This document shows, piece by piece, positions 14,222 to 58,755 of a DNA stretch of 64,000 bases (position 1 is its first letter; every line of letters begins with the position of its first letter). The notes under the pieces were generated by a model. That model was not told the origin of the DNA and made no database searches. It saw only the letters and a list, made by a program, of their open reading frames with translations. A program made the translations under genes and the position numbers. This DNA comes from Sphingobacteriales bacterium (GTDB lineage Bacteria; Bacteroidota; Bacteroidia; Sphingobacteriales; Sphingobacteriaceae), in NCBI GenBank assembly GCA_025353765.1, contig JANXOD010000044.1, positions 62,001-126,000 of the forward strand, in the 5' to 3' direction.

Positions 14222-14238
14222 ATCGAATAAGAATTTAT

Positions 14239-21731: not shown

Positions 21732-22520
21732 ATGATTAAATATAAACAGAAAAAAAATTGCATTCTAATCTTGTCGGGATTTCTGCTTTTACTTTCATCC
21801 TGTTCAACACGTCATCGGAATGCATTATTTACCAGTAAATCTGATTTAGTGACAGATACTATAAAAACAGTTTATGTTGTTAATTCAAATGAAGAAAAAG
21901 TTGAGCAATATCATATTAAGCCCAATGATGTTTTAGCAATCCGTAATTTACAGGACATCTCTCTCATTACGGTATCAGAAAGCAAACAGGCAGCTTCTCA
22001 GGCAACTACTTTTCGGGTAGAAGAAGACGGCGGTGTCGCCTTACCCGTTATAGGGAAAGTTGCTGTATTAGGACTATCACGTAAGGATGCTGCAGATAAA
22101 ATTCAAGCATTATATAAACAGAGTTTACTTAAAGACCCCATTATTGAGGTTACAGTTGTAAATTTAAAAGTTACCTTATTGGGTGAATTTACAAAGCAGG
22201 GGAATTTTCTATTGGATAAAGAGAATACTTCTCTAATTGATATTATTGGAGAAGCAGGTGGATTAACTCCAAGAGCCAATCCTAAAACTTTAAAGATCAT
22301 CCGTGGCGATCGTTCAAATCCAGAGTTGATTTATGTGAATTTAAAAGACATTAACAGCCTGGCCAGTCAAAAATTAATTTTAAAAAATAATGATATTATT
22401 TACATTGAAGCTCAAGGGATTTACAATACATCAGATAGGCTTCAATCTGTTTCTTCTATATTTCAACCGATATTAATTATTCTGAATACCGCATTAATTA
22501 TTTATAGTTTTACCAGGTAA
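21732..22520 (+). CDS. Wza-like outer-membrane polysaccharide export lipoprotein
   Basis: Polysaccharide biosynthesis/export family protein of 262 residues. A signal peptide ends in the lipobox LSSC with Cys24 as the lipidated residue. The export (poly_export) domain covers about residues 55-145 (YHIKPNDVLAIRN at its start), followed by one SLBB-type domain (VTLLGEFTKQGNF, about 150-230) and a hydrophobic C-terminal helix ending SFTR that should cross the outer membrane. It pairs with the Wzc-like kinase, whose ATG shares one base with its stop (TAATG). Proteins of this type form the outer-membrane channel for capsule or exopolysaccharide. Confidence 0.92.
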   Translation: MIKYKQKKNCILILSGFLLLLSSCSTRHRNALFTSKSDLVTDTIKTVYVVNSNEEKVEQYHIKPNDVLAIRNLQDISLITVSESKQAASQATTFRVEEDGGVALPVIGKVAVLGLSRKDAADKIQALYKQSLLKDPIIEVTVVNLKVTLLGEFTKQGNFLLDKENTSLIDIIGEAGGLTPRANPKTLKIIRGDRSNPELIYVNLKDINSLASQKLILKNNDIIYIEAQGIYNTSDRLQSVSSIFQPILIILNTALIIYSFTR

Positions 22521-24940
22521 TGAATCAAGGAATTTCTACAGAGCAAAATTTACTGGCCAATCAAAATATTGATTATTTCAAAGTTTTAAAAATCCTCTGG
22601 AGCCGCTGGTACTGGATAGCAGGATGTGTGATTACTGCCCTGCTAATTACCTATCTTTATTTGTGGTATACTCCACCCGTTTATTCAACCAATGCCTCGC
22701 TAAAGTTTGATGAGAAAAAATCAGAAATATCAGAATTACTCAAAGTAAATAATGTATACGACCGAACCAATAAAGTACAGTCAGAAACCTTTGTTATTAA
22801 GTCTACTGAGGTATTGATGAATGCGGTATCGAGGCTAAACTACAAAATATCTTATTACTTAAAAGGCAGGATCAGAACCACAGAAACATATCCTTCTATT
22901 CCTTTTCCAATTGAAATTGTATCACAAGATACTACCAATTTTTATCACGGATTATTAGACATTCAGAATTCAGAAAATAATGAGTTCAAATTAACTTATC
23001 TAGATGGTAAGAATGTCATTAAACATAGCTACCATTATGGCGATATAATACATATACCTGGAATTGTTTTCCAAATCAAAGAGAACTTGGGTGCAAAAAA
23101 TTCTGATTATAGCTTTAAATTTAATACTAAAGAAGATTTTATATCACGTATTTCTTCAGGCCTTAGTATGCGGGAGGCAGCTAAAAGCTCAAACATCTTA
23201 ATATTAACTTATACAGACCCCAACCCGGTATTTGCTAAAGACATTTTAAATGCTATAATTCGTGAGTATGTATCCTTTGACGGAAATCAACGTAGTTTAT
23301 CAGCCTCTCAAACCATTCAATTCATTGAAGATCAACTAAAGTTCTTATCCACTCAGGTTACTCGGTCAGGCTCTGCTTTACAAGAATTTAAGCGAGACAA
23401 TAAACTAATCGATCTTAATACAAATACTCAACTTAGCTTAAACAAATTAACCCAGGCGCAAACACAAAAAAATATATTAGAAATAGAAGGCTTGGCCATT
23501 GATCAATTAGAGCAGCAAATTATTAATAATAGAGATGGAGTTAACCTAAATTTCAATCTGGAAGGAACAGTTGGGGGGTTATTATCTAATTTAATTACTC
23601 AACTGAATGCTCTTATTGCAGAGCGGGAAAAAAAATTAAGTCAATTCAATCCTGACTCTCCACCAGTAATTCAAACCGAAAATCAGATAGTTGAAATTAG
23701 AAAAGCTATTATAAACAATATCAAATTGATGCGTGAGCGTAACCAAAAAACGCAACATTATACAGAAAATCAAATTTCTCAGGCTCAGCAAGGTCTAAAT
23801 TCTCTTCCAATTGCAGAACGGGATTTAATTAATCTGCAATCTGTTTTTGATATCAATCAAAAAGTTTTTTCTTATCTCTCAGAAAAGAAACTGGAAGCAC
23901 AGATTAGTAAAGCAGCTGTAATCCCGGGTGCAATTATTGTTAATCTGGCAGAAAATGGCTCTATTATCTCACCCGTACCTAATAAAATTTATACATATGG
24001 TATATTTTTGGGAGTATTAACTGGCCTTGGCCTGATCATATTGGTACGCATATTAAATCCATACATATATGATAAAGAAACTGTCGAGAGCTTAACAACT
24101 ATGCCAATTCTAGGTGTTATCAGACATTTCCCTGGTTATATTGATAAAGATAATCATCAAATACTCTCTCTAGAAAAACCAAAATCTATGTTTTCTGAAT
24201 CAGTACGTTCAGTACGTACTAATCTCAGCTTTTTAGCGGATGAAAAGCAAAGCAAAGTAATCTGTATCACTTCAGAAATCTCTGGTGAAGGGAAATCCTT
24301 TGTCTGTATTAATCTGGTCAGCACATTAGCTCTTATCGATAAAAAAGTGATCCTTATTTCTGCAGATTTAAGAAAATCTAAACTTCACCAAACATTCAAT
24401 TTAAAAAACAATGATGGCTTATCTACCTACCTTTCCAGCCCTGAAAAAGATATAAATACTATTATCCAGCATACTCATATTGATAACCTTGATTTTATAG
24501 CATCAGGGTCTGTACCTCCAAATCCATCCGAGCTTCTTCATTCTGATGCCATGAATAAATTGATTGAAGAATTGAAAGACATGTATGATTTTATAATGAT
24601 TGATACAGCTCCTATAGGATTGGTATCTGATGCTATACCCCTTATCAGAAAAGCAGATATTAATGTTTTTGTAATTCGTTCGGGTATTTCGAGGTATAAT
24701 GCGGCAACAATACCTGATCGTATGGCGCATGAATATGGCTTAACAAATGTAGTTATCGTCCTCAATTCATTTGATGATGATATACTGCACAGTCGTTACT
24801 ATTCAACTAATTATGCTACTAGCTATTACAATAATTACTACTACTATTCTGATTATTCGGGATATTCTAATTCGGGGTATTATGATTTAGATGGTGCTAA
24901 ATCAAGTTGGTGGAAGTTCTGGGAAAAATTTAAACGCTAA
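22520..24940 (+). CDS. Wzc-like polysaccharide co-polymerase / BY-type tyrosine autokinase
   Basis: Inner-membrane protein of 806 residues controlling chain length and export. A first membrane helix (about 30-50) precedes a large Wzz-type periplasmic domain with coiled coil; the second helix is near residue 495. The cytoplasmic kinase has Walker A in SGEGKS (about 590), Walker A' in VILISADLRKSK and Walker B in FIMIDTAPIG. The C-terminal tail holds 13 tyrosines within about 35 residues, the autophosphorylation cluster of BY-kinases. Fusion of the Wzz and kinase parts is the Gram-negative arrangement. Confidence 0.94.
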   Translation: MNQGISTEQNLLANQNIDYFKVLKILWSRWYWIAGCVITALLITYLYLWYTPPVYSTNASLKFDEKKSEISELLKVNNVYDRTNKVQSETFVIKSTEVLMNAVSRLNYKISYYLKGRIRTTETYPSIPFPIEIVSQDTTNFYHGLLDIQNSENNEFKLTYLDGKNVIKHSYHYGDIIHIPGIVFQIKENLGAKNSDYSFKFNTKEDFISRISSGLSMREAAKSSNILILTYTDPNPVFAKDILNAIIREYVSFDGNQRSLSASQTIQFIEDQLKFLSTQVTRSGSALQEFKRDNKLIDLNTNTQLSLNKLTQAQTQKNILEIEGLAIDQLEQQIINNRDGVNLNFNLEGTVGGLLSNLITQLNALIAEREKKLSQFNPDSPPVIQTENQIVEIRKAIINNIKLMRERNQKTQHYTENQISQAQQGLNSLPIAERDLINLQSVFDINQKVFSYLSEKKLEAQISKAAVIPGAIIVNLAENGSIISPVPNKIYTYGIFLGVLTGLGLIILVRILNPYIYDKETVESLTTMPILGVIRHFPGYIDKDNHQILSLEKPKSMFSESVRSVRTNLSFLADEKQSKVICITSEISGEGKSFVCINLVSTLALIDKKVILISADLRKSKLHQTFNLKNNDGLSTYLSSPEKDINTIIQHTHIDNLDFIASGSVPPNPSELLHSDAMNKLIEELKDMYDFIMIDTAPIGLVSDAIPLIRKADINVFVIRSGISRYNAATIPDRMAHEYGLTNVVIVLNSFDDDILHSRYYSTNYATSYYNNYYYYSDYSGYSNSGYYDLDGAKSSWWKFWEKFKR

Positions 24941-24956
24941 AGATTCTTTTATAGTC

Positions 24957-25463
24957 GTGACGATAAGTGAGCAATACCAATGGTATCCGGTATACACTAA
25001 CCCGAGAGCTGAAAAAACATCTCAGACTCTTTTAGCTAAGAAAGGTATTGAAGTTTATTTACCTCTTCAAAAGCAACTTAAAACCTGGAGTGATCGCAAA
25101 AAGTGGGTTGAAGAGCCTCTTATCAAATCCTATGTTTTTGTAAAAATATCAGTAAAGCAGCAGCCGGAAGTATTAATGACCAATGGAATTTGCCGTTTCC
25201 TTTATTTTTCAGGAAAAATAGCTTCCATGCCTGAGAAACAAATTGACCAGTTAAAATTGCTGATGGCCAATGAAGCAGAATTGGAAATATTGGATTACTC
25301 CTTTAAAAAAGGCGAAGAAGTATATGTCAAGGCAGGCCCTTTACAAGGAATGAAAGGAGAATTAATTACATTTCATTCTCAAAAAAAACTATTATTAAGG
25401 TTCGATCATATTGGGCAATCAGTAATTATACAGGTTCCACTGGCCTTTGTAGAACCCTTATAA
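24957..25463 (+). CDS. NusG-like transcription elongation factor (UpxY/RfaH type)
   Basis: Paralogue of NusG probably specialised for this locus. The NGN domain begins WYPVYTNPRAEK and contains PLIKSYVFVKI; a KOW-type domain (GEEVYVKAGPLQGMKGEL) forms the C-terminal third. In Bacteroides such proteins (UpxY) prevent premature termination within the capsule operon that encodes them, and RfaH has the analogous role in enterobacteria. The frame is open from an ATG at 24891 inside wzc, but that adds 22 residues unlike the family; a GTG at 24957, 17 bases after the wzc stop, gives 168 residues with NGN at the N-terminus and is preferred. A 134-base gap separates it from the long downstream operon. 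Confidence 0.85.
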   Translation: MTISEQYQWYPVYTNPRAEKTSQTLLAKKGIEVYLPLQKQLKTWSDRKKWVEEPLIKSYVFVKISVKQQPEVLMTNGICRFLYFSGKIASMPEKQIDQLKLLMANEAELEILDYSFKKGEEVYVKAGPLQGMKGELITFHSQKKLLLRFDHIGQSVIIQVPLAFVEPL

Positions 25464-25597
25464 ATTTTTGTTCTGCTTTAGGAACGAAAATTGTTCAGTT
25501 GGTCATATCAAAAATAAAAGATGTGACTGACGTGGCGAAGCTGTATTTGGTCTATCCAAACTTAAAAAATCAAAATTCTACACCTTTTTAAATTAGC

Positions 25598-27388
25598 ATG
25601 TGCCGTATAGCTGGAATAATTTCTAAACACTCATCTCCGAAAAAATTAATCGCACAGGTTAAAGCTATGTGTACTGTTATGAGAGATGGTGGTCCTGACG
25701 ATGAAGGAATATATGTAGATAAGGAAGGCAACACTTGTTTCGGGCATCGCCGCCTTTCTATACTGGATTTAAGTTCTGCAGGTCATCAACCTATGCTTAC
25801 AGATGATAAAAATCTGTGTATTAGCTATAACGGAGAGATTTATAACTTTAAAGAGCTAAGAGCAGAACTGAGTGCTGCAGGTGATAAATTTTATTCTGAT
25901 ACTGATACTGAAGTTATTCTAAAAGCTTATAAACGCTGGGGAACAAACTCGTTTAAACGATTTAAAGGAATGTTCGCCTTTTCACTTTTTGATACGGAAA
26001 ATAAAAAAACGTATTTGGTAAGAGATCCTAATGGAATAAAGCCACTGTATTATGCCACACCTAATCACGACCTCATATTTGCATCAGAAGTAAAGGCATT
26101 TAATCAAACTTCTTATTCTCTTACTAAAGATGAAAATTGGAAAATTTATCTTCTGGCCTTTGGGCATATCCCTGAACCTTTTACAACCTTTAAAGAGATT
26201 AATAGCCTGGCAAAAGGAAGTTTCTTAACCTGGGATCACCAAACCTGCACCAGCTCAATAAGTACTTTTTATAATTTTCAATACCACCAAACCATTATTG
26301 ATCCGGCTATAGCTATAGAGCAAGTTAAGTCACATCTTATCCAATCAGTAAAGCGGCATTTAATATCTGATGCACCAATTGGAGTGTTTTTAAGTGGAGG
26401 AATTGATTCCAGCATTCTTACTTTAATTGCAAACGAATTTCAAAAGGAAGACTTAGAAACTATTTCCGTAAATCTGGCAGAAACAGATTATTCAGAAGAA
26501 AAATATCAACAAATCATAACTAACTTAATTGTAGGAAAACACAGCGAATATTTATTTAAGTATAAAGAATTTGCAAATAGTTTCGATACTATTATCTCTG
26601 CTATGGACCAACCTTCTACAGATGGAATAAATTCCTGGTATGTGAGCAAATGTGCTAAAGAAAGTGGAATTAAAGCTGTACTATCGGGCTTAGGGGCCGA
26701 TGAATTATTTGGAGGTTATCCCTCTTTCCAGCGTATGGAAACTATTGCTTCTTTAAAAAAACTTCCTAAAAACGTTCTTAAACTGGCAGAGAAACATCCT
26801 AACCTCAAGTATAAACGGCTTTATTATTTAAGCTACGATAATCCCATTGGCGAATATTTATTTCTACGTGGATTTTATACACCCACGCTTATTGCAGAAA
26901 TTTTAGATGTTGATCGAAAAGAAGTTGATCAGCTCCTTTCTGGTTTCTCTATGAATAACGAGTTGAATACTTTGAAAGGTGGTAACAGAGCAAGCTGGCT
27001 TGAGACCAATTTGTATATGCAAAATCAATTACTGAGAGATACAGATTATATGAGCATGAGCCATGGTATTGAGGTACGGGTTCCATTTTTAGATCAGGAT
27101 TTGGTTGAAACTATTTTATCTATACACCCTGATGTTAAATTCAGTAAAAATCAGAGCAAAACTTTATTAATTAATGCATTTAAAGATATATTGCCTGAAT
27201 CGATATGGAAACGAAATAAAATGGGCTTCACTTTTCCTTTCCAGGAATGGATGAAAAAATTTGATGAAATATCAAATCCTGAAAATTATGGCAATAAAAC
27301 ATCCAAAAAATTGATGGGCAATTTTCGCAATGGGCAATTACATTGGTCATCTGCTTTTGCCTTGTACCACATTAATAAGGCAGAATAA
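25598..27388 (+). CDS. asnB: Asparagine synthase (glutamine-hydrolysing)
   Basis: Class II glutamine amidotransferase plus synthetase, 596 residues. Cys2 immediately after the start Met is the glutaminase nucleophile (MCRIAGI); the GHRRLSILDLS and YNGEIYN motifs bind glutamine. The synthetase domain has the PP-loop SGGIDSS near residue 267. Homologues within polysaccharide loci often amidate sugar carboxyl groups rather than making free asparagine, so a role in modifying uronic acids is possible; sequence alone does not settle this. First gene after the NusG-like factor. Confidence 0.9.
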   Translation: MCRIAGIISKHSSPKKLIAQVKAMCTVMRDGGPDDEGIYVDKEGNTCFGHRRLSILDLSSAGHQPMLTDDKNLCISYNGEIYNFKELRAELSAAGDKFYSDTDTEVILKAYKRWGTNSFKRFKGMFAFSLFDTENKKTYLVRDPNGIKPLYYATPNHDLIFASEVKAFNQTSYSLTKDENWKIYLLAFGHIPEPFTTFKEINSLAKGSFLTWDHQTCTSSISTFYNFQYHQTIIDPAIAIEQVKSHLIQSVKRHLISDAPIGVFLSGGIDSSILTLIANEFQKEDLETISVNLAETDYSEEKYQQIITNLIVGKHSEYLFKYKEFANSFDTIISAMDQPSTDGINSWYVSKCAKESGIKAVLSGLGADELFGGYPSFQRMETIASLKKLPKNVLKLAEKHPNLKYKRLYYLSYDNPIGEYLFLRGFYTPTLIAEILDVDRKEVDQLLSGFSMNNELNTLKGGNRASWLETNLYMQNQLLRDTDYMSMSHGIEVRVPFLDQDLVETILSIHPDVKFSKNQSKTLLINAFKDILPESIWKRNKMGFTFPFQEWMKKFDEISNPENYGNKTSKKLMGNFRNGQLHWSSAFALYHINKAE

Positions 27389-27396
27389 TTATATAA

Positions 27397-29356: not shown

Positions 29357-29502
29357 ATGCGCTGTATGTTTAATTACTGAATCGGTTATCTGCAAGTTAT
29401 TTAGAACTCAGAAATCAGTTTAGCGAATTAACCAATAAAAACTGAACACCCTTAGAAAAGCCGAATTGAAAGGTTAAGCAAATACACAAACACAAACCCT
29501 TA

Positions 29503-46432: not shown

Positions 46433-47671
46433 TTGAAAAAAATTGTCTTAATTACTTCAGGCCAGCCCTCTTTAAATCCAAGATTAGTAAAAGAAGCCGA
46501 TTCCCTATTCAGTGCCGGCTATAAAGTCACTGTTGTTTATCAGTATTGGAATGATTGGGGAACAGAGATGGATGAAGAATTATTAGCAGGCAAAAAATGG
46601 AAAGCTATTTGCGTAGGAGGAAGTCCCAATAAACAGAAAATTATTTATTGGATCACACGGTCTATCCATAAAACAGCAATCTTACTGGCTAAAAATTTTG
46701 GATTTAAACATGGTATTGCTGAATTAGCCATTGGACGCTGTACCTGGTTGCTTTATAACAAAGCAGCAAAATATCCAGCCGATATATACATTGCGCATAA
46801 CCTGGCTGCATTACCGGCTGCTATAAAAGCAGCAAATAAAACGAAAGCTAAATACGGTTTTGATGCTGAAGATTTTCATCGTAATGAAGTAAGTGATAAT
46901 CCTGATGATTTTGATGTACGCATTAAATCATTTATTGAAGAAAAATGTTTCCCAAAAGCTGATTATATAACTGCAAGCAGCAGGCAAATAGCATTAAAAT
47001 ATCAACAATTATTTCCTTCAAAAAGAATAACCACATTGTTAAATACTTTTCCAAAAAATACCATTGCAAGAATGGATTCTGTTAAAAAAGATGAGGCATT
47101 AAAGCTTTTTTGGTTTTCACAATCTGTAGGTTTAACACGAGGTATACAAGATGTATTATATGCCTTAAAAATCCTTGAAAAAGAGAACATTGAATTTCAC
47201 ATACTGGGTAGCCTTAAGCCAGAGGTGAAGATAGAACTTGATTATATAATTAAATATCTAAGCTTTGAATTGAAACCGCACATATTTTATCATAGACCTA
47301 TTCATCCTGATGCTTTAGCACAATTTGCTTCTCATTTTGATATTGGATTAGCCCTAGAGCCAGGGTTTTCAATCAATAATAACATCGCATTAAGCAATAA
47401 GTTATTTACCTATATCAGTGCAGGTTTGGCTTTAATTAACAGCGATACAATTGCACAATCTGAATTTATAGAGAATTATCCGGCTATTGGAAAAATTTAT
47501 AAAAAAGGAAATCCTGTATCACTGGCTAATGTGCTACTTGATTATATTCAAAATCCTCAATTATTAAAAAGTACAAAGGACGCTTCCTATCAAGCTGGGC
47601 AGAATTATCTGAACTGGGAAACTGAAAGTAGGCATTTCTTAGAAGTAATTCAAAATACTCTATCTTCTTGA
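46433..47671 (+). CDS. Family 4 glycosyltransferase
   Basis: A 412-residue GT-B enzyme. The N-terminal strand is KKIVLITSGQPSLNPRLVKEAD, with YIAHNLAALPAAIKAA further on; the C-terminal half has the donor-site ALEPGFSINNNIALSNKLFTY. The pattern fits the GT4 superfamily members in Bacteroidota surface glycan loci. The start is TTG two bases after the previous stop. Specificity unknown. Confidence 0.85.
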   Translation: MKKIVLITSGQPSLNPRLVKEADSLFSAGYKVTVVYQYWNDWGTEMDEELLAGKKWKAICVGGSPNKQKIIYWITRSIHKTAILLAKNFGFKHGIAELAIGRCTWLLYNKAAKYPADIYIAHNLAALPAAIKAANKTKAKYGFDAEDFHRNEVSDNPDDFDVRIKSFIEEKCFPKADYITASSRQIALKYQQLFPSKRITTLLNTFPKNTIARMDSVKKDEALKLFWFSQSVGLTRGIQDVLYALKILEKENIEFHILGSLKPEVKIELDYIIKYLSFELKPHIFYHRPIHPDALAQFASHFDIGLALEPGFSINNNIALSNKLFTYISAGLALINSDTIAQSEFIENYPAIGKIYKKGNPVSLANVLLDYIQNPQLLKSTKDASYQAGQNYLNWETESRHFLEVIQNTLSS

Positions 47672-48951
47672 AAAAAGCACTTATCATTTCTCCCTATTTT
47701 CCTCCCAGTAATGCTGCAGATATGCAACGAATACGAATGAGCCTACCCTATTTTAAAGAGTTTGGATGGGAAGTTGAAGTGGTATGTGTAGATGAGAAGC
47801 ATTCGGAAATGGTTAAAGATCCTTTATTTTCAGAGAGTATTCCTAAAGATATTAAGATTCATATTATTTCTGCATTTTCAAAAAAATGGACATCCAAATT
47901 TGGCTTAGGCAGCCTGGCTCTGCGTTCCATGTGGTTTTATCGTCGCAAAGTAAATCAGCTACTCAAAACAACACATTTTGACCTCATCTATTTTTCTACT
48001 ACCCAGTTTCCAATTACCATTTTGGGGAATTACTGGAAACGAAAATTTGGAATACCTTATGTAATTGATATGCAAGATCCTTGGCATTCTAATTACTATC
48101 AGGATAAACCAAAAGATCAGCGTCCGGCAAAATATTGGTTTTCGTACCGTCTTAATAAATACCTTGAACCATTGGCAATGAAAGAAGTGGGTGGCCTGGT
48201 TAGTGTTTCTGAAGCTTATATTAAAACGCTACAGGAACGCTATTTTAGAATCCAAAATATTCCAACAGCAGTTATTACTTTTGGCGCCTTTGAAAAAGAT
48301 TTTGAAATCGTTGATCAACAAAGAAGTACTTTAAAACCTGCATTTGAAAGAAAAAATGAGAACATTCATATTGTTTATGTGGGACGCGGAGGGCATGATA
48401 TGGAGAATTCGTCGGATTTATTATTTCGCGGGTTCAAAAAAGGATTAGTAGAGAATTCGGGATTATTTCAAAAGATACGGTTTCATTTTATTGGTACCAG
48501 CTATGCTCCGGCAGGAAAAGGAAAACCAACTATTTTACCTATCGCGATCAAACTAGGCTTATCTGAGTATGTTGATGAACAGACAGATCGCATTCCGTTT
48601 TATCAAGGTATTAGAACGCTTCTGGAAGCAGATGCATTATTAGTGCCCGGCTCCAATGATCCTCAATATACGGCCTCTAAGATTTATCCATACATCATGG
48701 CAAAAAAACCACTTCTGGCTATCTTTAACCCTTTGAGCAATGCTTCAAAAATAATACAGGATTGTAACGCCGGAAAAGTTGCAAATATAACTGACCCGAA
48801 AAAAGCGATAGATGATATTTATTCTTTTCTTTTAAGCCTAACCAATGATATTCCTAAACTAAATCATACAAACTGGAAAGTTTTTAAAGAATTTACTGCC
48901 GAAAGCATGACCCGGAAGCAATGCGATCTGTTTAATAAAATTATCAATTAA
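47668..48951 (+). CDS. Family 4-like glycosyltransferase
   Basis: A 427-residue GT-B enzyme. ALIISPYFPPSNAADMQRIR at the start is a common beginning for GT4-like surface-glycan enzymes, and YVIDMQDPWHSNYYQ is the acceptor-domain segment. In the C-terminal half, LVPGSNDPQYTASKIYPYIMAKKPLLAIF replaces the usual EX7E region. The start is TTG in a TTGA overlap with the preceding gene. Confidence 0.83.
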   Translation: MKKALIISPYFPPSNAADMQRIRMSLPYFKEFGWEVEVVCVDEKHSEMVKDPLFSESIPKDIKIHIISAFSKKWTSKFGLGSLALRSMWFYRRKVNQLLKTTHFDLIYFSTTQFPITILGNYWKRKFGIPYVIDMQDPWHSNYYQDKPKDQRPAKYWFSYRLNKYLEPLAMKEVGGLVSVSEAYIKTLQERYFRIQNIPTAVITFGAFEKDFEIVDQQRSTLKPAFERKNENIHIVYVGRGGHDMENSSDLLFRGFKKGLVENSGLFQKIRFHFIGTSYAPAGKGKPTILPIAIKLGLSEYVDEQTDRIPFYQGIRTLLEADALLVPGSNDPQYTASKIYPYIMAKKPLLAIFNPLSNASKIIQDCNAGKVANITDPKKAIDDIYSFLLSLTNDIPKLNHTNWKVFKEFTAESMTRKQCDLFNKIIN

Positions 48952-48963
48952 AATTCAACCATT

Positions 48964-50136
48964 GTGCCCTTGAAAAAGCTTGCAATAATTAGTACTCATC
49001 CTATTCAATATTATGCCCCCGTATTTCGCTTATTATCTGAAAGAGGAAAAGTTGAAATAAAGGTATTTTATACTTGGGGAGAAGGCTCTCTCAAAAAGCA
49101 TGATCCCGGTTTTGGCAAAACCATTGAATGGGATATTCCACTTTTGGAGGGCTATAACTATGAATTTTTAACTAATACTTCTGCTGAACCTGGTTCACAT
49201 CATTTTAAAGGAATAAAAAACCCTGACCTAATTTCAAAGGTTAAATCATTTAATCCTGATGCCATTTTAGTTTATGGCTGGGCCTACCAGAGTCATCTAA
49301 AATTAATGCGTCATTTTAAGGGCAAAATTCCTGTATGGTTTCGAGGGGATTCTACTCTATTGAACTTCCCTAGAGGATATATAGAAAAGGCAAAAGCGAT
49401 TATTAAAAAGATTTTTTTAAAATGGGTATACCAACATATTGATAAAGCATTTTTTGTAGGAAGTAATAACAAAGCCTATTTTCTGAAATATGGCCTAACA
49501 GAACATCAATTAGTATTTGCTCCTCATGCTATAGATAATAACCGCTTTCAGAAAGACCGCAGTGAGGAGGCTTTAAATTTTCGACAAGAACTTAAATTAA
49601 TTGATACAGATATTCTGATACTTTTTGCAGGTAAATTAGATAATAATAAAAATCCTTTTTTATTATTGAAAGCCTTTATAGATCTAAAAATATCTGGTGC
49701 ATATCTCCTATTTACAGGTAATGGAATATTAAAGAAAGATTTAGAATTAAAAGCTTTAGCTCAGCCTAACATTCATTTCTGTGATTTTCAAAACCAAAGT
49801 ATTTTACCTGTTCATTATCAAGCTTGTGATCTGTTTTGCTTACCCTCATTAAGTGAAACATGGGGTTTAGCAGTAAATGAAGCCATGACTTGTGGCAAAG
49901 CTGTATTAGTTTCGGATAAAGTAGGTTGTGCAATTGATCTGGTTAAGCAAAACCTAAACGGGGCTATTTTTAAAAGCAACTCATATATAGACATTCATCA
50001 AAAATTAGGCGATTTAATTAAGAAAAAACGTACAGACTTACAATTAATGGGGCAGGCCTCCTTGCATATTATCCAAGATTGGACATTCCAAAATCAGGTG
50101 AAGGCTATAGAAAACTGTTTAAGTAAAATCGCATAG
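48964..50136 (+). CDS. Family 4 glycosyltransferase
   Basis: A 390-residue GT-B enzyme beginning KKLAIISTHPIQYYAPVFRLL. The C-terminal domain shows LFAGKLDNNKNP, the loop LPSLSETWGLAVNEAMTCGKAVLVSD with the EX7E pair, and a final helix. The start is GTG at 48964, with a TTG two codons later as an alternative. About 50 bases separate it from the polymerase gene. Confidence 0.9.
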   Translation: MPLKKLAIISTHPIQYYAPVFRLLSERGKVEIKVFYTWGEGSLKKHDPGFGKTIEWDIPLLEGYNYEFLTNTSAEPGSHHFKGIKNPDLISKVKSFNPDAILVYGWAYQSHLKLMRHFKGKIPVWFRGDSTLLNFPRGYIEKAKAIIKKIFLKWVYQHIDKAFFVGSNNKAYFLKYGLTEHQLVFAPHAIDNNRFQKDRSEEALNFRQELKLIDTDILILFAGKLDNNKNPFLLLKAFIDLKISGAYLLFTGNGILKKDLELKALAQPNIHFCDFQNQSILPVHYQACDLFCLPSLSETWGLAVNEAMTCGKAVLVSDKVGCAIDLVKQNLNGAIFKSNSYIDIHQKLGDLIKKKRTDLQLMGQASLHIIQDWTFQNQVKAIENCLSKIA

Positions 50137-50186: not shown

Positions 50187-51608
50187 ATGTTTCAATTCAA
50201 ATATGAACGATATTTAATACTTTTTATCCCCTGGATATTAAGTCTGCTTTTTATTAATTTTCCTGAACTGTCTTATTTGCTGGCATGGTTAGGATCATTC
50301 TTCATATTTTATTTAAGCATGTCTGGTTACATCAAACCTATACCAAATGATCTAAGTTTTGCTGAGCAGATCATGCGTCCCCTATTTCTTACGCAATTCA
50401 TATTTGCAGGCTATATGTGTATTACCTCCATATTTTACTTCCTTAATACTTTTTTAAATTTTGAGGAAACACTATCTCCTGTCAATATTCATCAACTGGA
50501 GCTGGTAGCCCAATGTCAGAGATTTTACTGCCTTGCACATGCTGCATTGGCAACAGGTATTTTAATGGTTATGAAGTACCCTATTAAGCCTGTATATAAA
50601 ATAAAATATACATACATGCCTACCTTTTTAATCAATACGGCACTTTTTTTACTTCCAATTTCTTTTTTATTTAGTATAATACCCGGATTAAACCAACTTT
50701 ATTACCAAGTAACTTCCTTAAGTTTTATTGCAGGCACACTTGCCTTAGCTTTAGCATTAGGCATACCCACAAGAAAAACCGGTAATATGGTATTATGTGG
50801 ATTTTTATACATGTTTAATTTTTACCAGGCCTTAATAACAGGCTTTAAAGAGCCTATTATCATTAATATTTTAGTATTGGGTGTGTTTTTATATCCTTTT
50901 TACAAAAAAGCAATCCTGTTAATTTTTGTCCCATTGCTAATTCTCTTATTTTTATACTTACCAACTTACAACCGAGTATTTCGTGAAAGAGCATGGACTG
51001 GAGAAGAAAGTGTAGAGGATGCCACACAGGCAGCATTAATAGCAACTACTAATGATGGGAATGATGGGAATGATGATGATGATGATTTTGAAAAAACAAA
51101 TTGGGAGTTTTTAACAGGAAGATTTTCTGAAATTAGCATGTTTACACAATATGTAAAATCTACTCCAGATATGGTCGATTATTATGGCCTGGGGATTATC
51201 AAACAATCTATTACTTTAATTATACCCCGAATATTATGGCCTGAAAAACCTATTACAGAGCAATTATCAATGGAACGTGTATACAATGCCGGTGTAATAG
51301 AATCATCCTCTAACGTATCCGCCAAACCTGCTGTTATAGTTGATGCCTATTTATCAGGGGGGAAATTTGGTATATTCCTAACTTTTTTGATTTATGGTGT
51401 GCTTGCACAATATATTTCTTCCAAAGCAGAGAAATTATTTGGAGGATACCTCTTGGGAACGGCGTTAATTTATTCAGGACTCTTTCAGGTTTTTTGGCGG
51501 GGACTTAGCTTTGAGTTTCTTATCAATTCAATATTCTGGAGCTTTGTTACTATGTGGGTTATTTTTGCATTATTACGACTTACTAAAATTCTAAATAAAG
51601 TTGCATAA
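50187..51608 (+). CDS. Wzy-like polysaccharide polymerase, copy 1
   Basis: Polytopic membrane protein of 473 residues with about eleven hydrophobic segments and a large acidic loop near residues 270-310, as in O-antigen or capsule polymerases (Wzy). The loop contains WEFLTGRFSEISMFTQYV and, further on, IIPRILWPEKP, shared with the next gene. A string of Asp/Asn/Gly (about 288-300) is encoded by a short DNA repeat. It probably joins repeat units at the periplasmic face of the inner membrane. It has a clear ATG, and its sequence is strikingly similar to copy 2 along its whole length. Confidence 0.82.
   Translation: MFQFKYERYLILFIPWILSLLFINFPELSYLLAWLGSFFIFYLSMSGYIKPIPNDLSFAEQIMRPLFLTQFIFAGYMCITSIFYFLNTFLNFEETLSPVNIHQLELVAQCQRFYCLAHAALATGILMVMKYPIKPVYKIKYTYMPTFLINTALFLLPISFLFSIIPGLNQLYYQVTSLSFIAGTLALALALGIPTRKTGNMVLCGFLYMFNFYQALITGFKEPIIINILVLGVFLYPFYKKAILLIFVPLLILLFLYLPTYNRVFRERAWTGEESVEDATQAALIATTNDGNDGNDDDDDFEKTNWEFLTGRFSEISMFTQYVKSTPDMVDYYGLGIIKQSITLIIPRILWPEKPITEQLSMERVYNAGVIESSSNVSAKPAVIVDAYLSGGKFGIFLTFLIYGVLAQYISSKAEKLFGGYLLGTALIYSGLFQVFWRGLSFEFLINSIFWSFVTMWVIFALLRLTKILNKVA
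51051..51086 (+). repeat. Slippage-prone tandem repeat inside Wzy copy 1
   Basis: Two copies of the 9-base unit AATGATGGG (51051-51059, 51060-51068) run into AAT followed by five consecutive GAT triplets to 51086. Units are multiples of three, so changes in copy number would lengthen or shorten the acidic loop without breaking the frame. Confidence 0.8.
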
Positions 51609-51659: not shown

Positions 51660-53078
51660 ATTAAACAGTCAATCTATTTCCCACACGAGCGATATCTGCT
51701 TCTTTTTATCCCATGGATATTAAGCCTGATATTTAGTGCAGATCCCATCCTATCTTACCTGATAGCATGGATCGGCTCTTTTTTCATATTCTTTATGAGT
51801 ATTAGTGGGCTAATCAAACCAATTCCAAATGATTTAAAATGGAGTGAACAATTAATGCGGCCTATATTTCTTACACAAATCATATTTGCAGGTTATATGT
51901 GCTCTACATCCATATTTTATTTTATGGATGTGCTCGGCTATATTAACTTTCAATTACCCGCTGTAGGTTATTCGGTAGATACAGACCAATTAGAACTGGT
52001 AGCAACCTGTCAGCAATATTATTGTTTAGGGCATGCAGCTCTGGTTACCGGTATTTTATCACAAATGACATATTCTGCAAAGCAGCAGTATTTTATAAAC
52101 CCTGCTTCAATTCCAAATTTCTTATTAAGTTTAGCCATAATCTCTTTACCTGTATCCCTATTATTTCGGCTTATACCGGGTTTATCACAATTTTCACTCC
52201 AATTTATAGCCTTAAGTTTTATTTCAGGAACCCTGGCCCTTGCCTTTGCTATTCCATTAAAAAAAATAGGCAATACGATTTTATGTTTATTTCTATATGT
52301 ATCCAACTTCACTCAGGCGTTCCTTTCCGGATTTAAAGAACCAATTATCATAAGTATATTGGTTTTAGGAATATTTCTATATCCATTTTACAAAAGGATT
52401 GTTTTTTTTGTTTTTTTACCAATACTCTTTCTCTTGTTTTTATTATTACCAACTTATAACCGGGTATTTAGAGAAAATGCATGGTCTGATGGTGAGAATA
52501 CTTCTATTGCTTCAGATGCTGCAGTAGAAGCTTTATATAACCAAACTAAAACAGAAGAGAATGAAACTAACTGGGACTTCTTAACAGGTCGCTTAAGTGA
52601 GATTGGTATGTTTACGACATTTGTTAAATCAACACCAGACAGAGTTGATTATTATGGCTTGAAAATAGTTAAACAATCGTTTTTGGCCATTATTCCACGC
52701 ATTTTTTGGCCTGCTAAACCTATAACAGAAGAGCAGGTAATGGAACGTGTATACGATGCAGGAGTGGTTGAAACAGGCTCTAAAGTCTCAGCAAAGCCTG
52801 CAGTTGTGGTAGATGCCTATCTCTCTGGAGGCACGCTTGGGGTACTCATAACTTTCCTTATTTACGGTGCTGCCGCTCAATTTATTTCGTCAAAAGCGGA
52901 GAAGTTATTTGGTGGTTATGTAGTAGGTACCGCATTAATTTATTCGGGTTTATTTCAGTCCTTTTGGCGTGGCTTGACATTCGAATTTATGCTAAATACT
53001 ATATTTTGGGGTTATATCTCTATGCTTATTATTTTCAGAGTGCTTAAAGCAACCCATTTTTTGAAAGAGTTCAAGTAA
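51660..53078 (+). CDS. Wzy-like polysaccharide polymerase, copy 2 (no ATG at its true N-terminus)
   Basis: Tandem paralogue of the preceding polymerase with the same hydrophobic profile. The first in-frame ATG is at 51795, but the frame upstream of it continues to encode a match to copy 1: codons from 51687 read ERYLLLFIPWILSL and then SYLIAWIGSFFIFF. An in-frame stop at 51633 limits the start to 51636-51686, where no ATG, GTG or TTG in frame was found; ATT at 51660 (MKQSIYFPHERY, aligning with MFQFKYERY) is the best candidate. From there the protein has 472 residues. If ATT is not used, the product would lack its first two membrane segments. It ends sharing one base with the next ATG. Confidence 0.72.
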   Translation: MKQSIYFPHERYLLLFIPWILSLIFSADPILSYLIAWIGSFFIFFMSISGLIKPIPNDLKWSEQLMRPIFLTQIIFAGYMCSTSIFYFMDVLGYINFQLPAVGYSVDTDQLELVATCQQYYCLGHAALVTGILSQMTYSAKQQYFINPASIPNFLLSLAIISLPVSLLFRLIPGLSQFSLQFIALSFISGTLALAFAIPLKKIGNTILCLFLYVSNFTQAFLSGFKEPIIISILVLGIFLYPFYKRIVFFVFLPILFLLFLLLPTYNRVFRENAWSDGENTSIASDAAVEALYNQTKTEENETNWDFLTGRLSEIGMFTTFVKSTPDRVDYYGLKIVKQSFLAIIPRIFWPAKPITEEQVMERVYDAGVVETGSKVSAKPAVVVDAYLSGGTLGVLITFLIYGAAAQFISSKAEKLFGGYVVGTALIYSGLFQSFWRGLTFEFMLNTIFWGYISMLIIFRVLKATHFLKEFK

Positions 53079-54253
53079 TGCATATCTTTCAGATTAATGC
53101 GTCATACAAGCCCGCTTATATTTACGGTGGCCCTACTATGTCTGTTTCCAAACTGAGTGAAGAACTGGTAAAAGCGGGACAAGATGTTAGCGTTTTAACT
53201 ACCACTGCAAACGGACTAATCGAATTAGATTTAAAGCCAGGAGAACTTCAGTTGGTAGATAATGTACCCGTAATTTACTTTAAACGCCTAACTAAAGATC
53301 ATTCCCATTTCTCTCCTGCTTTATTTAGTCATTTATTTAAGAAGCTTAACAAATCAATAAACCAGCAAATTATTCACATCCACGCCTGGTGGAATTTAGT
53401 ATCTATGATTTCCTGCTTTATCTCTTTGTGGAAACAAAAACAGGTAATACTATCGCCACGAGGAACATTAAGCAGCTATTCTTTTAAAAATAGAAGTAGT
53501 ATATTAAAGAATACCTTCCATACCCTGGCTGGCAAACACCTATTAAAACGTTGCCATTTTCATGTAACCAGTGAAAAAGAAAAACAAGATATTCTCAATC
53601 TGTTAATCCCAAAAAGCATAACAGTGATCCCAAATTTTGTACGGTTAGAAGCTGAAAGTGCTATTTGTAAAACCGAACAAGTTTCACAAAATGAATCTCA
53701 AATCTCAAATCCCATTAAACTTCTCTTCCTATCCCGCATTGAAGAAAAAAAAGGATTAGATCTTCTGTTTAATGCATTGGTAAACTTTCATATCCCATAT
53801 ACGTTAACAGTTGCTGGAAGTGGCCATTCAGAGTATATCGTTCAACTAAAACAGCTTGCTTCAAAATTGGGTATAGACCAACATATAGCGTGGATTGGCC
53901 AACAGGGATCAGAGAAAAAATTCAGTATTTTACATTGCCATGATCTGCTTGTACTTCCTTCTCATGACGAAAATTTTGCCAATGTGGTGATTGAAAGTTT
54001 ATCAGTAGGGACTGCTGTACTCATTAGCAAAAAAGTGGGGCTTGCAGATTATGTAGCAAAACACGATCTTGGGTGGATAAGTGATATTACTGCAGTTGAA
54101 TTAAGACAAACAATTGATATCGCCAGCAAAGATTTCGAGAAAAGAGAATTGATCCGGCAGAATGCTCCACAAAAAATCAGGAATGACTTTAATGATGATC
54201 AATTAGTTAAACGTTATATAGAAATGTACGAAACAGCACTTGCTAATTCTTAA
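53078..54253 (+). CDS. Family 4 glycosyltransferase
   Basis: A 391-residue GT-B enzyme. YKPAYIYGGPTMSVSKLSEEL near the start and IIHIHAWWNLVSM form the acceptor side; LLFLSRIEEKKGLDLLF and LPSHDENFANVVIESLSVGTAV form the donor side with the EX7E pair. The ATG shares one base with the stop of the second polymerase (TAATG). It resembles the XrtY-neighbourhood glycosyltransferases in context, but that link is not checked. Confidence 0.92.
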   Translation: MHIFQINASYKPAYIYGGPTMSVSKLSEELVKAGQDVSVLTTTANGLIELDLKPGELQLVDNVPVIYFKRLTKDHSHFSPALFSHLFKKLNKSINQQIIHIHAWWNLVSMISCFISLWKQKQVILSPRGTLSSYSFKNRSSILKNTFHTLAGKHLLKRCHFHVTSEKEKQDILNLLIPKSITVIPNFVRLEAESAICKTEQVSQNESQISNPIKLLFLSRIEEKKGLDLLFNALVNFHIPYTLTVAGSGHSEYIVQLKQLASKLGIDQHIAWIGQQGSEKKFSILHCHDLLVLPSHDENFANVVIESLSVGTAVLISKKVGLADYVAKHDLGWISDITAVELRQTIDIASKDFEKRELIRQNAPQKIRNDFNDDQLVKRYIEMYETALANS

Positions 54254-54295: not shown

Positions 54296-54925
54296 ATGTC
54301 TGATTATCGCGATTATGGTTTTCCCGGAGAGGAATCCACTCATGCACATGCTTATTTACAGCAGCCTTTAGTGCAATTGCTAAATAAGGATTTAAAACCA
54401 TGCATTCTCGACCTTGGTTGCGGAAATGGATCCTTAGTGAGATTTTTATTAAACAAGGGCTTTGATGCATATGGAACCGATGCTTCTGAAGAGGGAATCC
54501 GTATTGCCAAAAATCTGCATCCTGATCGTTTTGCATTACAGGATTTATCTACAGATGATCTGCCATCTTTATTAGCTGATATTTCTTTTAATACAATTAT
54601 TTCCACGGAAGTGATTGAGCATTTATATAATCCACGTAAGTTTATAACCTTTTGCAAAACAATACTCATTAAAAGCGGTGGCGATCTGATCATTTCCACA
54701 CCATATCATGGATATTTAAAAAACCTATCTCTTAGTCTTATCGGTTATTGGGATAAGCATTTGGATCCGCTTTGGGATGGAGGGCATATTAAAATGTGGT
54801 CAAAAAACACCTTAACTCTTTTACTGGAAGAACAAGGATTTAAGGTTAGCAATTTCATTGGCTGTGGCCGTTATCCCTATCTTTGGAAATCAATGATGAT
54901 TAAAGCAACTTTAGCCCATGCCTGA
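54296..54925 (+). CDS. Class I SAM-dependent methyltransferase
   Basis: A 209-residue methyltransferase of the UbiG/Methyltransf_11-23 type. Motif I is ILDLGCGNGSLVRFL near residue 38, the acidic residue of motif II is in GTDASEEGI, and ISTEVIEHLYNPRKF is the post-motif region. Its probable substrate is a glycan or a lipid carrier-linked sugar, given the surroundings. It is unrelated in sequence to the four FkbM enzymes. Confidence 0.88.
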   Translation: MSDYRDYGFPGEESTHAHAYLQQPLVQLLNKDLKPCILDLGCGNGSLVRFLLNKGFDAYGTDASEEGIRIAKNLHPDRFALQDLSTDDLPSLLADISFNTIISTEVIEHLYNPRKFITFCKTILIKSGGDLIISTPYHGYLKNLSLSLIGYWDKHLDPLWDGGHIKMWSKNTLTLLLEEQGFKVSNFIGCGRYPYLWKSMMIKATLAHA

Positions 54926-55790
54926 TTTCTCTTTCATTATTTTAACCTATAATGAAGAGCAACATCTGCCCCGCTTGCTCGAATCTATAAAAATACTTAA
55001 TGCTAATACATATATATTAGATTCCGGCAGTACGGATCAAACCTTAACTATCTGCAAACAATATGGAGTTCATATAGCATATCACGCTTTTGAAAATCAT
55101 CCCAAACAATGGGATACTGCTTTAAAAATATTTACCATAAATACCCCATGGATTATCGGACTCGATGCTGACCAAATTGTAACACCTGAATTATTGGTAC
55201 AGCTTCAGAATTTCAAAACTGAAGATTATTCAGATGTAAATGGTATATACTTTAACCGGAAAAACTATTTTAAAGGGAAGTGGTTAAAATATGGTGGTTA
55301 CTACCCTAAATATTTATTGAAAATGTTTAGATATGGCATAGGATATTCGGATCTGAACGAAAATATGGATCATCGGTTTATTGTTCCCGGTAAATCCATC
55401 ATTTGGAAAAAGGGGCATATTCTGGAAGAAAATCTGAAAGAGAACAAGATCAGTTTTTGGATTGATAAACATAATCGCTATAGTGATTTGGTGGCTGATG
55501 AGGAAATAGAACGTTTGCTAAACAACCGAAATCAAACTATTGTACCACGTTTTTGGGGTTTACCCGATGAACGGATTGCCTGGCTAAAAAGATTGTGGTG
55601 GAAACTTCCCCATTTTTTACGCCCCTTCTTATACTTTTTTTACAGGATGATTTTCCAATTAGGCATATTGGATGGAAGAACAGGTATCTTATTCCACTTT
55701 TTACAGGGATTCTGGTTTCGCATTATTGTTGACGTAAAGATTGCTGAGAAATTAAAACAAATTAAAAGCCATACTAAAATTAATACCTGA
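54918..55790 (+). CDS. Family 2 glycosyltransferase (WaaE/KdtX-like)
   Basis: A 290-residue GT-A enzyme. It begins FSFIILTYNEEQHLPRLLESI, with ILDSGSTDQT and the metal-binding IGLDADQIVTPEL near residue 82. The HPKQWDTAL stretch and C-terminal hydrophobic helix region (about 225-270) recall WaaE/KdtX-type enzymes, which transfer glucose to lipopolysaccharide core, and the initiating or lipid-proximal class. It overlaps the methyltransferase by 8 bases. Confidence 0.88.
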   Translation: MPDFSFIILTYNEEQHLPRLLESIKILNANTYILDSGSTDQTLTICKQYGVHIAYHAFENHPKQWDTALKIFTINTPWIIGLDADQIVTPELLVQLQNFKTEDYSDVNGIYFNRKNYFKGKWLKYGGYYPKYLLKMFRYGIGYSDLNENMDHRFIVPGKSIIWKKGHILEENLKENKISFWIDKHNRYSDLVADEEIERLLNNRNQTIVPRFWGLPDERIAWLKRLWWKLPHFLRPFLYFFYRMIFQLGILDGRTGILFHFLQGFWFRIIVDVKIAEKLKQIKSHTKINT

Positions 55791-55855: not shown

Positions 55856-56455
55856 TTGAACAAAATCCTATACTGGTATAAAAATCCAACATACCGCTTT
55901 CTAGTCTTATTTTTGACGGGATTTTTATTGCTGTATTATTTCAACCTCTTTTTCATCGGAATAACTTCACCAGGGAATTACTATAGTAGTTTTTTAAATC
56001 AGCATTTAAATTATATTCGTGGATTGAGGGATCTGTTGCTACAAATCATATCAAAAATATTAACGATACAGGGTTATAAAGTTTATACTTCAGACTATAC
56101 CCTTCATGCGATGAATATAGGAGGCTTTAATATTGTTTACAGCTGTTTAGGCTTTGGGGTGATGAGCTTTTTTACCGCGTTTGTAATAGCCTGGCCTGGC
56201 AAACCTGTTAAAAACAAGATTTTTTTTATAATAGCAGGTATTGCAATTATACAATTGCTAAACATTACAAGGTTTATATTAATTACGTTATATTTTAATA
56301 AAATTTTGTTTTTAGGAATAAACCATCATACTTTATTTAATCTTATTTTATATTTCATCCTTATGGTGGTGATATATGTTTGGATAAATTCTCCAAAAAA
56401 GAAACATAATAATTCTCCTGATGTTGAAGCAAACACAGCTCAAAAAAAAATTTAA
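55856..56455 (+). CDS. Exosortase/archaeosortase-family membrane protein
   Basis: A 199-residue polytopic protein with about five to six hydrophobic segments. The three exosortase catalytic residues can be placed: Cys97 in IVYSCLGFGVMSFF, Arg139 in LLNITRFIL and His157/158 in GINHHTLFN. In characterised systems exosortases cleave a C-terminal PEP-CTERM-like signal and attach the protein, often in strains making exopolysaccharide. No protein with such a signal was recognised in the window. It follows two Wzy-like polymerases, which recalls the exosortase Y arrangement as I remember it from family collections. The start is TTG at 55856; the ATG five bases upstream meets an immediate stop. Confidence 0.85.
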   Translation: MNKILYWYKNPTYRFLVLFLTGFLLLYYFNLFFIGITSPGNYYSSFLNQHLNYIRGLRDLLLQIISKILTIQGYKVYTSDYTLHAMNIGGFNIVYSCLGFGVMSFFTAFVIAWPGKPVKNKIFFIIAGIAIIQLLNITRFILITLYFNKILFLGINHHTLFNLILYFILMVVIYVWINSPKKKHNNSPDVEANTAQKKI

Positions 56456-56978
56456 CACAAAAGACTATAGCATCGACGCTTCTGCCTTTAAAATAGCATC
56501 CTGGTATTTTGTGAGTACACTTTTTTTCCGTTCCGGCATTATACCCTTCAGTACTATTCTTGTAGCTATTCTAAAAATGTATGGTGCAAAAATTGGTAAA
56601 GATGTTAGGGTAAAGCCTTATACCAATATAAAGTATCCATGGAAACTTATTGTTGGTGACCATACTTGGATTGGAGAACATTGTTGGATTGAGAATCTCG
56701 CCATGGTAACACTCGGTAGCAATGTATGTCTTTCCCAGGGATCTATGTTATTAACCGGCAATCATGATTACAAAAAAGTATCATTTGATCTCATAACGCA
56801 ACCTATAATTATAGAAGATGGCGTTTGGATTGGCGCTAAAGCGATGGTTTGTCCTGGCATACATGCAGCCTCACATGCTATTTTATCTGTTAGTTCTGTG
56901 GCAACTAAAAATATGGATGCTTATTCCATTTACCAGGGAAATCCGGCTGTTAAGGTTAGGGACAGAGTTATTGAATGA
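56421..56978 (+). CDS. WcaF-like hexapeptide-repeat acetyltransferase
   Basis: A 185-residue left-handed beta-helix acyltransferase. After a basic N-terminus with a short hydrophobic segment come hexapeptide turns (VGDHTWIGEHCWIENLA, LGSNVCLSQGSMLLTGNHDY) and IIIEDGVWIGAKAMVCPGI; the catalytic His is probably that of GNHDYK. WcaF-like enzymes O-acetylate colanic acid-type polymers. It overlaps the exosortase gene by 35 bases, so the two are probably co-translated, and it is the last gene of the polysaccharide operon. Confidence 0.87.
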   Translation: MLKQTQLKKKFNTKDYSIDASAFKIASWYFVSTLFFRSGIIPFSTILVAILKMYGAKIGKDVRVKPYTNIKYPWKLIVGDHTWIGEHCWIENLAMVTLGSNVCLSQGSMLLTGNHDYKKVSFDLITQPIIIEDGVWIGAKAMVCPGIHAASHAILSVSSVATKNMDAYSIYQGNPAVKVRDRVIE

Positions 56979-57037: not shown

Positions 57038-58033
57038 TCACTCATTAATTACCTTCCAAAGCAAATCTTTTAGTCCAAGTAATCCTTTCTGCGCAACTGA
57101 TGAAATAAAAATAGCTGGTATTTCAGGAAGATCTTTTTTCATTTCATCTGCTAACTCCTCATCCAGCAAATCTGTTTTTGTAATAGCCAAAACACGGGGC
57201 TTATGCATTAGTTCGGGATTATATTGCTCCAGTTCATTTAATAATATCCCATATTCTTCCCGTATAGTTCTACTGGTATCTGCAGGAACCATAAATAATA
57301 AAACAGAGTTTCGTTCAATATGCCTTAAAAAACGAATTCCTAATCCTTTACCTTGCGATGCTCCTTCTATAATTCCCGGAATATCCGCCATTACAAAAGA
57401 TTTATTATCCCGGTAGGAAACAATGCCCAAATTTGGAACCAGCGTTGTAAAAGCATAATCTGCAATCTCTGGTTTTGCTGCCGATAGTACAGAAAGCAAT
57501 GTTGATTTGCCTGCATTTGGAAAACCTACCAAACCTACATCAGCTAGGATCTTTAACTCCAAAACCATCCACTCCTCTTTTCCATCTTCACCAGGTTGAG
57601 AATAACGCGGCGTTTGCTTTGTGGATGTTTTAAAATGCCAGTTTCCTAAACCGCCTTTACCGCCGGGAGTTAGTATTTTAGTTTCTCCATCTTTCGTGAT
57701 CTCGAAAAGTATTTCTCCTGTTTCGGAGCTTCTGGCAATAGTGCCCAGAGGTACTTCTAATATTTCATCATTCCCTGTTCTGCCAGATTTCTGCCCACTA
57801 GAACCAGGAAAACCATTCTCTGCAATAATGTGTTTGCGATATTTTAAGTGTAGCAGTGTCCATAGCTGGCTGTTCCCTTTTAATATCACATGCCCCCCCC
57901 GACCACCATCTCCACCATCCGGGCCACCTTTAGATGTTAAAATATCCCTATGCAAATGCGAGGATCCTGCACCGCCATGCCCCGATCGACAGCATATTTT
58001 TACATAATCTACAAAATTAGAACCCTGAGACAT
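57038..58033 (-). CDS. obgE: ObgE/CgtA GTPase
   Basis: Essential ribosome-associated GTPase of 331 residues. The N-terminal Obg fold (about 1-160) is the glycine-rich segment with [14 protein letters not shown]; the G domain has G1 in [11 protein letters not shown] (about 168), G3 in DIPGIIEGA and G4 in ITKTDLLD. No C-terminal extension beyond the G domain. It is convergent with the polysaccharide operon and follows adk after an 87-base gap that contains a terminator. Confidence 0.96.
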
Positions 58034-58063
58034 TTTAATTGAATTAAGTTGGCGTGCTTACAA

Positions 58064-58100
58064 AAATAAAAAAGCGGAAGATAAATCTCTGCCGCTTTTC
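58064..58100 (-). terminator. Rho-independent terminator after adk
   Basis: On the minus strand AAAAGCGG (58099-58092) pairs with CCGCTTTT (58077-58070), with a 14-base loop that may pair further, followed by a T-rich tract (TTTTTTATTTTTG). It lies about 20 bases beyond the adk stop. Confidence 0.7.
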
Positions 58101-58120
58101 TGGATACTTTAAAATTTGGT

Positions 58121-58693: not shown

Positions 58694-58755
58694 TCGAATT
58701 ATCTTAATTTTTCTTATTGATTTAGGCAATAAGGTATGGACAGCTTCAAAATTTT

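Follow-up and report, generated by a model that had tools for sequence, protein, structure and literature searches.

What does an exosortase act on when its gene lies inside a surface-polysaccharide operon and no target protein can be recognised beside it? This question is raised by one gene in the stretch of 64,000 nucleotides presented above (the window in the following), which comes from a species of the genus Daejeonella within the Sphingobacteriaceae. The features of the window that bear on it are collected in Table 1, and the distribution of the relevant families was followed in 251 genomes of the Sphingobacteriaceae, 105 of which contain the enzyme.

Table 1 Exosortase gene and polysaccharide genes of the window (coordinates refer to the whole stretch)
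Feature	Coordinates	Strand	Basis
Wza-like polysaccharide export protein and Wzz/Wzc-like chain-length kinase	21732..24940	+	PF02563, PF02706, PF13614
UpxY-family antiterminator	24891..25463	+	NF033644, 153 bits
Asparagine-synthase-like amidotransferase	25598..27388	+	TIGR01536, 433 bits; TIGR03108, 362 bits (cut-off 817)
Two GT4-type glycosyltransferases	47668..50136	+	Pfam; upstream of Wzy in other XrtY clusters (synteny)
XrtY-associated Wzy-like protein, first copy	50187..51608	+	NF046084, 674 bits, above cut-off
XrtY-associated Wzy-like protein, second copy	51795..53078	+	NF046084, 646 bits, above cut-off
XrtY-associated GT4 glycosyltransferase XYAG1	53078..54253	+	NF046085, 576 bits, above cut-off
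SAM-dependent methyltransferase	54296..54925	+	PF13489; in a minority of 20 compared loci
GT2 glycosyltransferase, directly upstream of XrtY	54918..55790	+	Pfam PF00535, synteny
Exosortase Y (XrtY)	55856..56455	+	NF046083; C97, R139, H157/H158; TTG start
WcaF-family O-acetyltransferase	56421..56978	+	NF007797, 215 bits (cut-off 192)

The exosortase and its polysaccharide cluster

The open reading frame is present and encodes 199 amino acids counted from its TTG codon. It is an exosortase Y (XrtY), that is, a member of a curated family, and the enzyme itself is not new: NF046083 matches it with 173.2 bits (cut-off 160) over model positions 2-168 of 168, and the cut-off of TIGR04178 is exceeded as well. 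The scores for exosortase X (NF046081, 59 bits, cut-off 170) and XrtF (TIGR04128, 41 bits, cut-off 90) stay below the respective thresholds. Cys97, Arg139 and His157/158, which the first-pass annotation had picked out as an exosortase active site, occupy the right positions and do not vary in any of the 52 XrtY sequences of the alignment; Y95, G99, G101, P114, N136 and Y166 are likewise invariant. AlphaFold2 predicts a mainly helical protein with good confidence (mean pLDDT 87.3, pTM 0.79); a fold comparison against the PDB returned nothing below E = 1 and no solved structure resembling XrtY by sequence was found there. Searches with TIGR04178 and NF046083 recovered exactly one exosortase from the window's genome. 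We also considered XrtX as the processing enzyme of this genome and ruled it out, a second exosortase being absent; the NF046081 cut-off was reached in none of the sampled genomes.

The surroundings turned out as first described, with twin Wzy-like polymerases before the gene and a WcaF-like acetyltransferase frame overlapping its 3' end. Across 20 loci that represent many genera of the Sphingobacteriaceae, the order Wzy, XYAG1, GT2, XrtY, WcaF recurs, some loci lacking one or other of these genes, and WcaF adjoins XrtY in most of them. The exosortase Y group linked to Wzy-like proteins, which the first-pass annotation had brought up, is indeed the family in question: XrtY (at least 100 bits) occurs in 90 of the 94 Wzy-positive genomes among the 251, and 15 of the 105 XrtY genomes are without a Wzy-like protein. 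Nineteen of the 251 genomes have XrtY as part of a longer open frame (463-514 amino acids); in the fused loci that were examined, the GT2 of the upstream gene is joined in frame to XrtY and the exosortase residues are intact in the alignment. In the XrtY tree, such fused forms fall into three to four positions apart from one another. Repeated fusion of two neighbours is usually a sign that they act jointly, and the fusions may hence point to a sugar-containing acceptor or substrate. A predicted structure of the fusion was set aside for its low confidence (pLDDT 58, seven sequences).

Several further observations concern the cluster as a whole. The UpxY-family antiterminator presumably marks the head of a long polysaccharide operon. 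The amidotransferase that follows it is related to the amidotransferase of XrtA/PEP-CTERM systems (TIGR03108, below cut-off), a theme common to PEP-CTERM clusters. An ABC exporter (Wzm-like, 28508-29356; Wzt-like, 29503-30768) is encoded in the same cluster, and together with the Wza/Wzc pair (the region 21732-30768) and the two Wzy-like proteins it may indicate that several polymers or several routes of export are encoded. Upstream of the cluster (12749-17838) lie two receiver-domain histidine kinases, one of 490 and one of 1199 amino acids, the latter with CHASE3, GAF and three receiver domains. In many of the 20 loci the XrtY cluster adjoins obgE and adk (57038-58729 in the window), and these two genes form the 3' border of the polysaccharide cluster in many genera, which suggests that the variable genes for surface polysaccharides occupy a constant place in the chromosome.

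A candidate target encoded away from the cluster

A six-frame scan of the window found no protein with a C-terminal motif, helix and basic tail, in agreement with the initial impression that a target is not visible at the locus. The genome-wide search for such a signal, which had been proposed as a check and was carried out with profiles, yielded a single candidate: by the curated model NF046080, the window's genome has just one protein of the PID-CTERM type, which is encoded on a different contig (C24:109879-109950). The model matches residues 52-75 of the 90-residue precursor with about 42-44 bits (cut-off 26), and the gene is located at L084:9832-10104 on the minus strand. The precursor reads MEKRSSSKTNRYSKFIVGTFLCILIIAATQVNAFAQ-CDPLLDPNCQGDPDAPLDGG-VGFLVVAGVAYGLKKIRNNKGTELSEPLSEKRLF (the divisions are ours) and includes the stretch ...NAFAQCDPLLDPNCQGDPDAPLDGGVGFLVVAGVAYGLKKIRNNKG. 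It consists of a signal peptide, judged by eye from an N-terminal hydrophobic stretch ending in NAFAQ, about 20 acidic Cys-Pro-Asp residues, the motif APLDGG, and a membrane helix that is followed by a basic tail. If the signal peptide is removed and the chain is cut close to PLD, the mature mini-protein is predicted to retain no more than about 20 acidic residues, two cysteines forming a pair among them. It is likely that XrtY has a protein target and that this target is encoded outside the cluster in the window's species; the two genes are unlinked, and their likely pairing is based on co-occurrence and on each being the sole candidate in the genome.

The PID-CTERM locus has an address of its own, which is conserved and unrelated to xrtY: across genera it is often found beside the same RND pump, with AcrB and outer membrane efflux genes (L084:4897-9383, L085, L086, L088-L092, L101, L102). 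In many genomes, a gene weakly similar to GlcNAc kinase is also near this locus.

The co-distribution of signal and enzyme supports the pairing. With the curated model NF046080 alone, an exosortase was found in 32 of 33 positive genomes versus 82 of 218 others (p=1e-11). Most forms from Mucilaginibacter (CPLDTWV) and Pedobacter (CPLDDY) escape this model, and profiles extended to such diverged sequences detected P[ILV]D-CTERM signals in 92/105 XrtY genomes versus 10/146 others (p=6e-42); these profiles were built partly from XrtY-positive genomes, so that 92/105 is not a fully independent figure, as the one from the curated model is, and the p-values overstate the evidence for this reason and because related genomes are not independent of each other. 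Eleven of the 13 remaining XrtY genomes show weaker target matches, which we judged real by their anatomy, and for two (G125, G159) neither the extended profiles nor weaker matches revealed a target. An XrtX-like exosortase is present in five of the ten signal-positive genomes without XrtY, and targets without a detected exosortase were seen in five genomes (G068, G146, G154, G200, G221). Matches in G263 and G227, 38-residue frames with no precursor around them, were discarded as chance hits or remnants. Within the window's genus, XrtY is found in 5 of 20 genomes, and the curated PID model is positive in four of these five and in none of the 15 others; the fifth XrtY genome carries a diverged mini-protein.

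A second target architecture was observed in Pedobacter, where most XrtY genomes are without the T9SS partner domain described below. The targets here are one or several secreted proteins of roughly 117-195 amino acids, often in tandem, with the C-terminal motif C-P-[LI]-D-D-Y followed by a helix and a basic tail, and in 33 of 35 array genomes one of them is encoded 26-48 kb from XrtY. At the Pedobacter loci L194, L195, L197-L199 and L207, the tandem arrays consist of Cys-containing secreted proteins (about 120-185 amino acids) whose C-terminal signals are of the CPLDDY type, and the four that were scanned with NCBIfam gave no match. The array-type XrtY form one Pedobacter clade (support 100/99), and the XrtY of mini-protein-bearing Pedobacter branches elsewhere in the tree, whose long branches leave the exact topology unsure. 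The type of XrtY tracks the type of target and not the genus, which is what one would expect if the two are related as enzyme and substrate.

Overlap and co-inheritance with T9SS cargo

A T9SS cargo protein of 2508 amino acids is encoded in the window's genome at L084:10076-17602 (contig C24), and the 3' end of its gene is overlapped by that of the mini-protein. The T9SS type A domain of the cargo protein (TIGR04183/PF18962) scores 34.9 bits against a cut-off of 23 at residues 2432-2507, and its open frame is the longest among the approximately 45 proteins with a T9SS-CTD in this genome. The arrangement is widespread: a T9SS-cargo gene lies directly upstream of the mini-protein gene, often overlapping it, in 59 of 75 cases (57 recognised by motif, two with variant motifs confirmed by TIGR04183), and TIGR04183 matched all 39 partner C-termini that were tested. 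The overlap of the two genes suggests that the mini-protein product and the adhesins act together at the cell surface.

A domain of about 313 amino acids, located before the sorting domain, is common to all 57 long partner proteins; in the partner from the window's species, neither Pfam nor NCBIfam gave a match in this region. The domain is present in 79 of the 251 genomes, 74 of them with an exosortase, and the mini-protein accompanies it in 72 of these 79 versus 1 of the 172 others. In Daejeonella it occurs in 5/5 XrtY genomes and in 0/15 others, and D. oryzae possesses four proteins with this domain around one mini-protein gene. The window's genome encodes a second T9SS cargo protein with the domain (C27:138392-139303), with no mini-protein nearby, and one mini-protein may therefore serve several adhesins.

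Possible functions and relation to known systems

Considering these data together, we regard it as probable that a small secreted P-[ILV]-D protein of the PID-CTERM type has in XrtY its dedicated processing enzyme, and that the product is displayed together with T9SS adhesins. The precursor would be exported via its signal peptide, and the helix and basic tail at its C-terminus would keep it in the inner membrane. From what is established for the exosortase superfamily (Haft 2006, PMC1569441; archaeosortase substrates, PMC7157517), the best reading is that XrtY, with Cys97 as the cutting residue beside Arg139 and His157-158, would cleave near the P-[IL]-D motif and would then pass the new C-terminus to an acceptor supplied by the adjacent GT2/Wzy/glycosyltransferase cluster, most likely a lipid-linked sugar or the polysaccharide. 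At the surface, the product would work with the adhesins that the T9SS secretes and whose genes lie next to that of the mini-protein; bound to a polysaccharide or a lipid, the peptide could, for example, serve as their docking site. A more specific version, in which a glycan conjugate of the peptide of about 20 residues, made by the exosortase, docks or retains the giant T9SS adhesins via their domain of about 313 residues and so couples two display systems, is a tentative proposal that we hold to be possible and somewhat doubtful. The first-pass annotation had left it between a protein and a glycan as the thing transferred onto a carrier: its protein half gained support, a glycan as the substrate is not needed, and a glycan as the acceptor is plausible, with the GT2-XrtY fusions as indirect evidence.

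The same fusions, together with the nearly constant company of Wzy and glycosyltransferases and the presence of XrtY in nearly all Wzy-positive genomes, could also be taken to mean that XrtY is without a protein target and acts on the polysaccharide itself, for example in a transferase step or a Wzy-like step of an unusual kind, and that the PID proteins belong elsewhere. This is very unlikely, as the P[ILV]D signal coincides with XrtY much more often than chance would allow, the window's genome has no other exosortase to process it, and disruption of the related EpsH in Methylobacillus left the polysaccharide unchanged (Haft 2006, PMC1569441). The shortness of the predicted mature peptide would fit an enzyme that is a protease only and frees an acidic peptide to the periplasm or the medium, as a signal or a soluble T9SS accessory factor. 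We find this quite unlikely, since it leaves the fixed glycosyltransferase context and the GT2 fusion unexplained, and since substrates of archaeosortase are described as lipid-anchored (PMC7157517) and rhombosortase and the T9SS sortase as coupling cleavage to attachment (PMC7468200).

The participation of the adhesins has to be weighed separately. The mini-protein gene does not directly follow a T9SS gene in 16 of 75 cases, and in the Pedobacter array clade XrtY is mostly retained in the absence of the partner domain, which is missing from 35 XrtY genomes, as would be the case if both kinds of genes simply shared a locus for surface functions and the XrtY product decorated the polysaccharide independently of the adhesins. 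Nevertheless, gene overlaps in many genera, the domain common to all partners and its close co-distribution with the mini-protein argue against a mere shared locus, which we consider rather unlikely. Joint action of the XrtY product with T9SS adhesins is further in line with findings in Flavobacterium johnsoniae, where deletion of xrtF causes a loss of biofilm and zorb formation equal to that after deletion of porV, porU, porZ or sprA (PMC10936215). XrtF is likewise an exosortase of Bacteroidota whose deletion phenocopies T9SS mutants, but it belongs to a family different from that of XrtY, as the scores given above demonstrate; the likeness of the mutants independently supports a functional connection between exosortases and the T9SS in this phylum.

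XrtY, its Wzy-like partner, XYAG1 and PID-CTERM are already known as curated NCBIfam families, and proteins of the window exceed the cut-offs of NF046083, NF046084 and NF046085. Beyond this set, the unlinked target, the connection to the T9SS and the GT2 fusion were found here, although the curators may partly know the pairing. The literature that we searched names neither exosortase Y nor PID-CTERM anywhere, and the unlinked targets, the T9SS operons, the domain of about 313 residues, the Pedobacter arrays and the GT2 fusion appear to be undescribed in it. The target of the window's genome resembles PID-CTERM proteins in scoring above the NF046080 cut-off. At XrtX-like loci the PID-CTERM gene adjoins the exosortase (G219, G081, G106, G014), whereas the target in XrtY genomes is usually unlinked or tens of kilobases away; it is very short and in many cases of a diverged form (CPLDTWV, CPLDDY) that the curated model does not reach. 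Like XrtA/EpsH of Proteobacteria, XrtY is a membrane enzyme of the Cys/Arg/His type whose gene lies in an exopolysaccharide locus. In both systems an asparagine-synthase-like protein belongs to the cluster, the targets have an N-terminal signal peptide and a C-terminal motif, helix and basic tail, and, as a further likeness, they are located mostly in operons of their own (PMC1569441). The XrtY system differs in having P[ILV]D in place of the PEP motif, one to few tiny targets plus operonic T9SS cargo, and a GT2 fused to the enzyme in some genomes. In the same phylum, PorU attaches T9SS cargo to A-LPS, which likewise combines C-terminal processing with attachment to a surface glycan (PMC7468200); PorU, however, handles T9SS CTDs and is no exosortase, whereas the inner-membrane XrtY would handle a separate mini-protein beside the T9SS cargo.

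For exosortases Y and F of Bacteroidota, the literature searched holds no published substrate. Here, likely substrates of XrtY are assigned in two architectures, one of which is tied to T9SS adhesins through overlapping genes and co-inheritance. Given the GT2 fusion, the search for the acceptor can concentrate on sugar-containing or lipid-linked sugar molecules, and the genes are present in named species of Mucilaginibacter and Pedobacter and in Daejeonella oryzae, which makes a test at the bench possible. The proposed role of XrtY links two surface-building systems that so far have been studied apart, and the link between XrtY and the T9SS offers a hypothesis for the likeness of exosortase and T9SS mutants in Flavobacterium.
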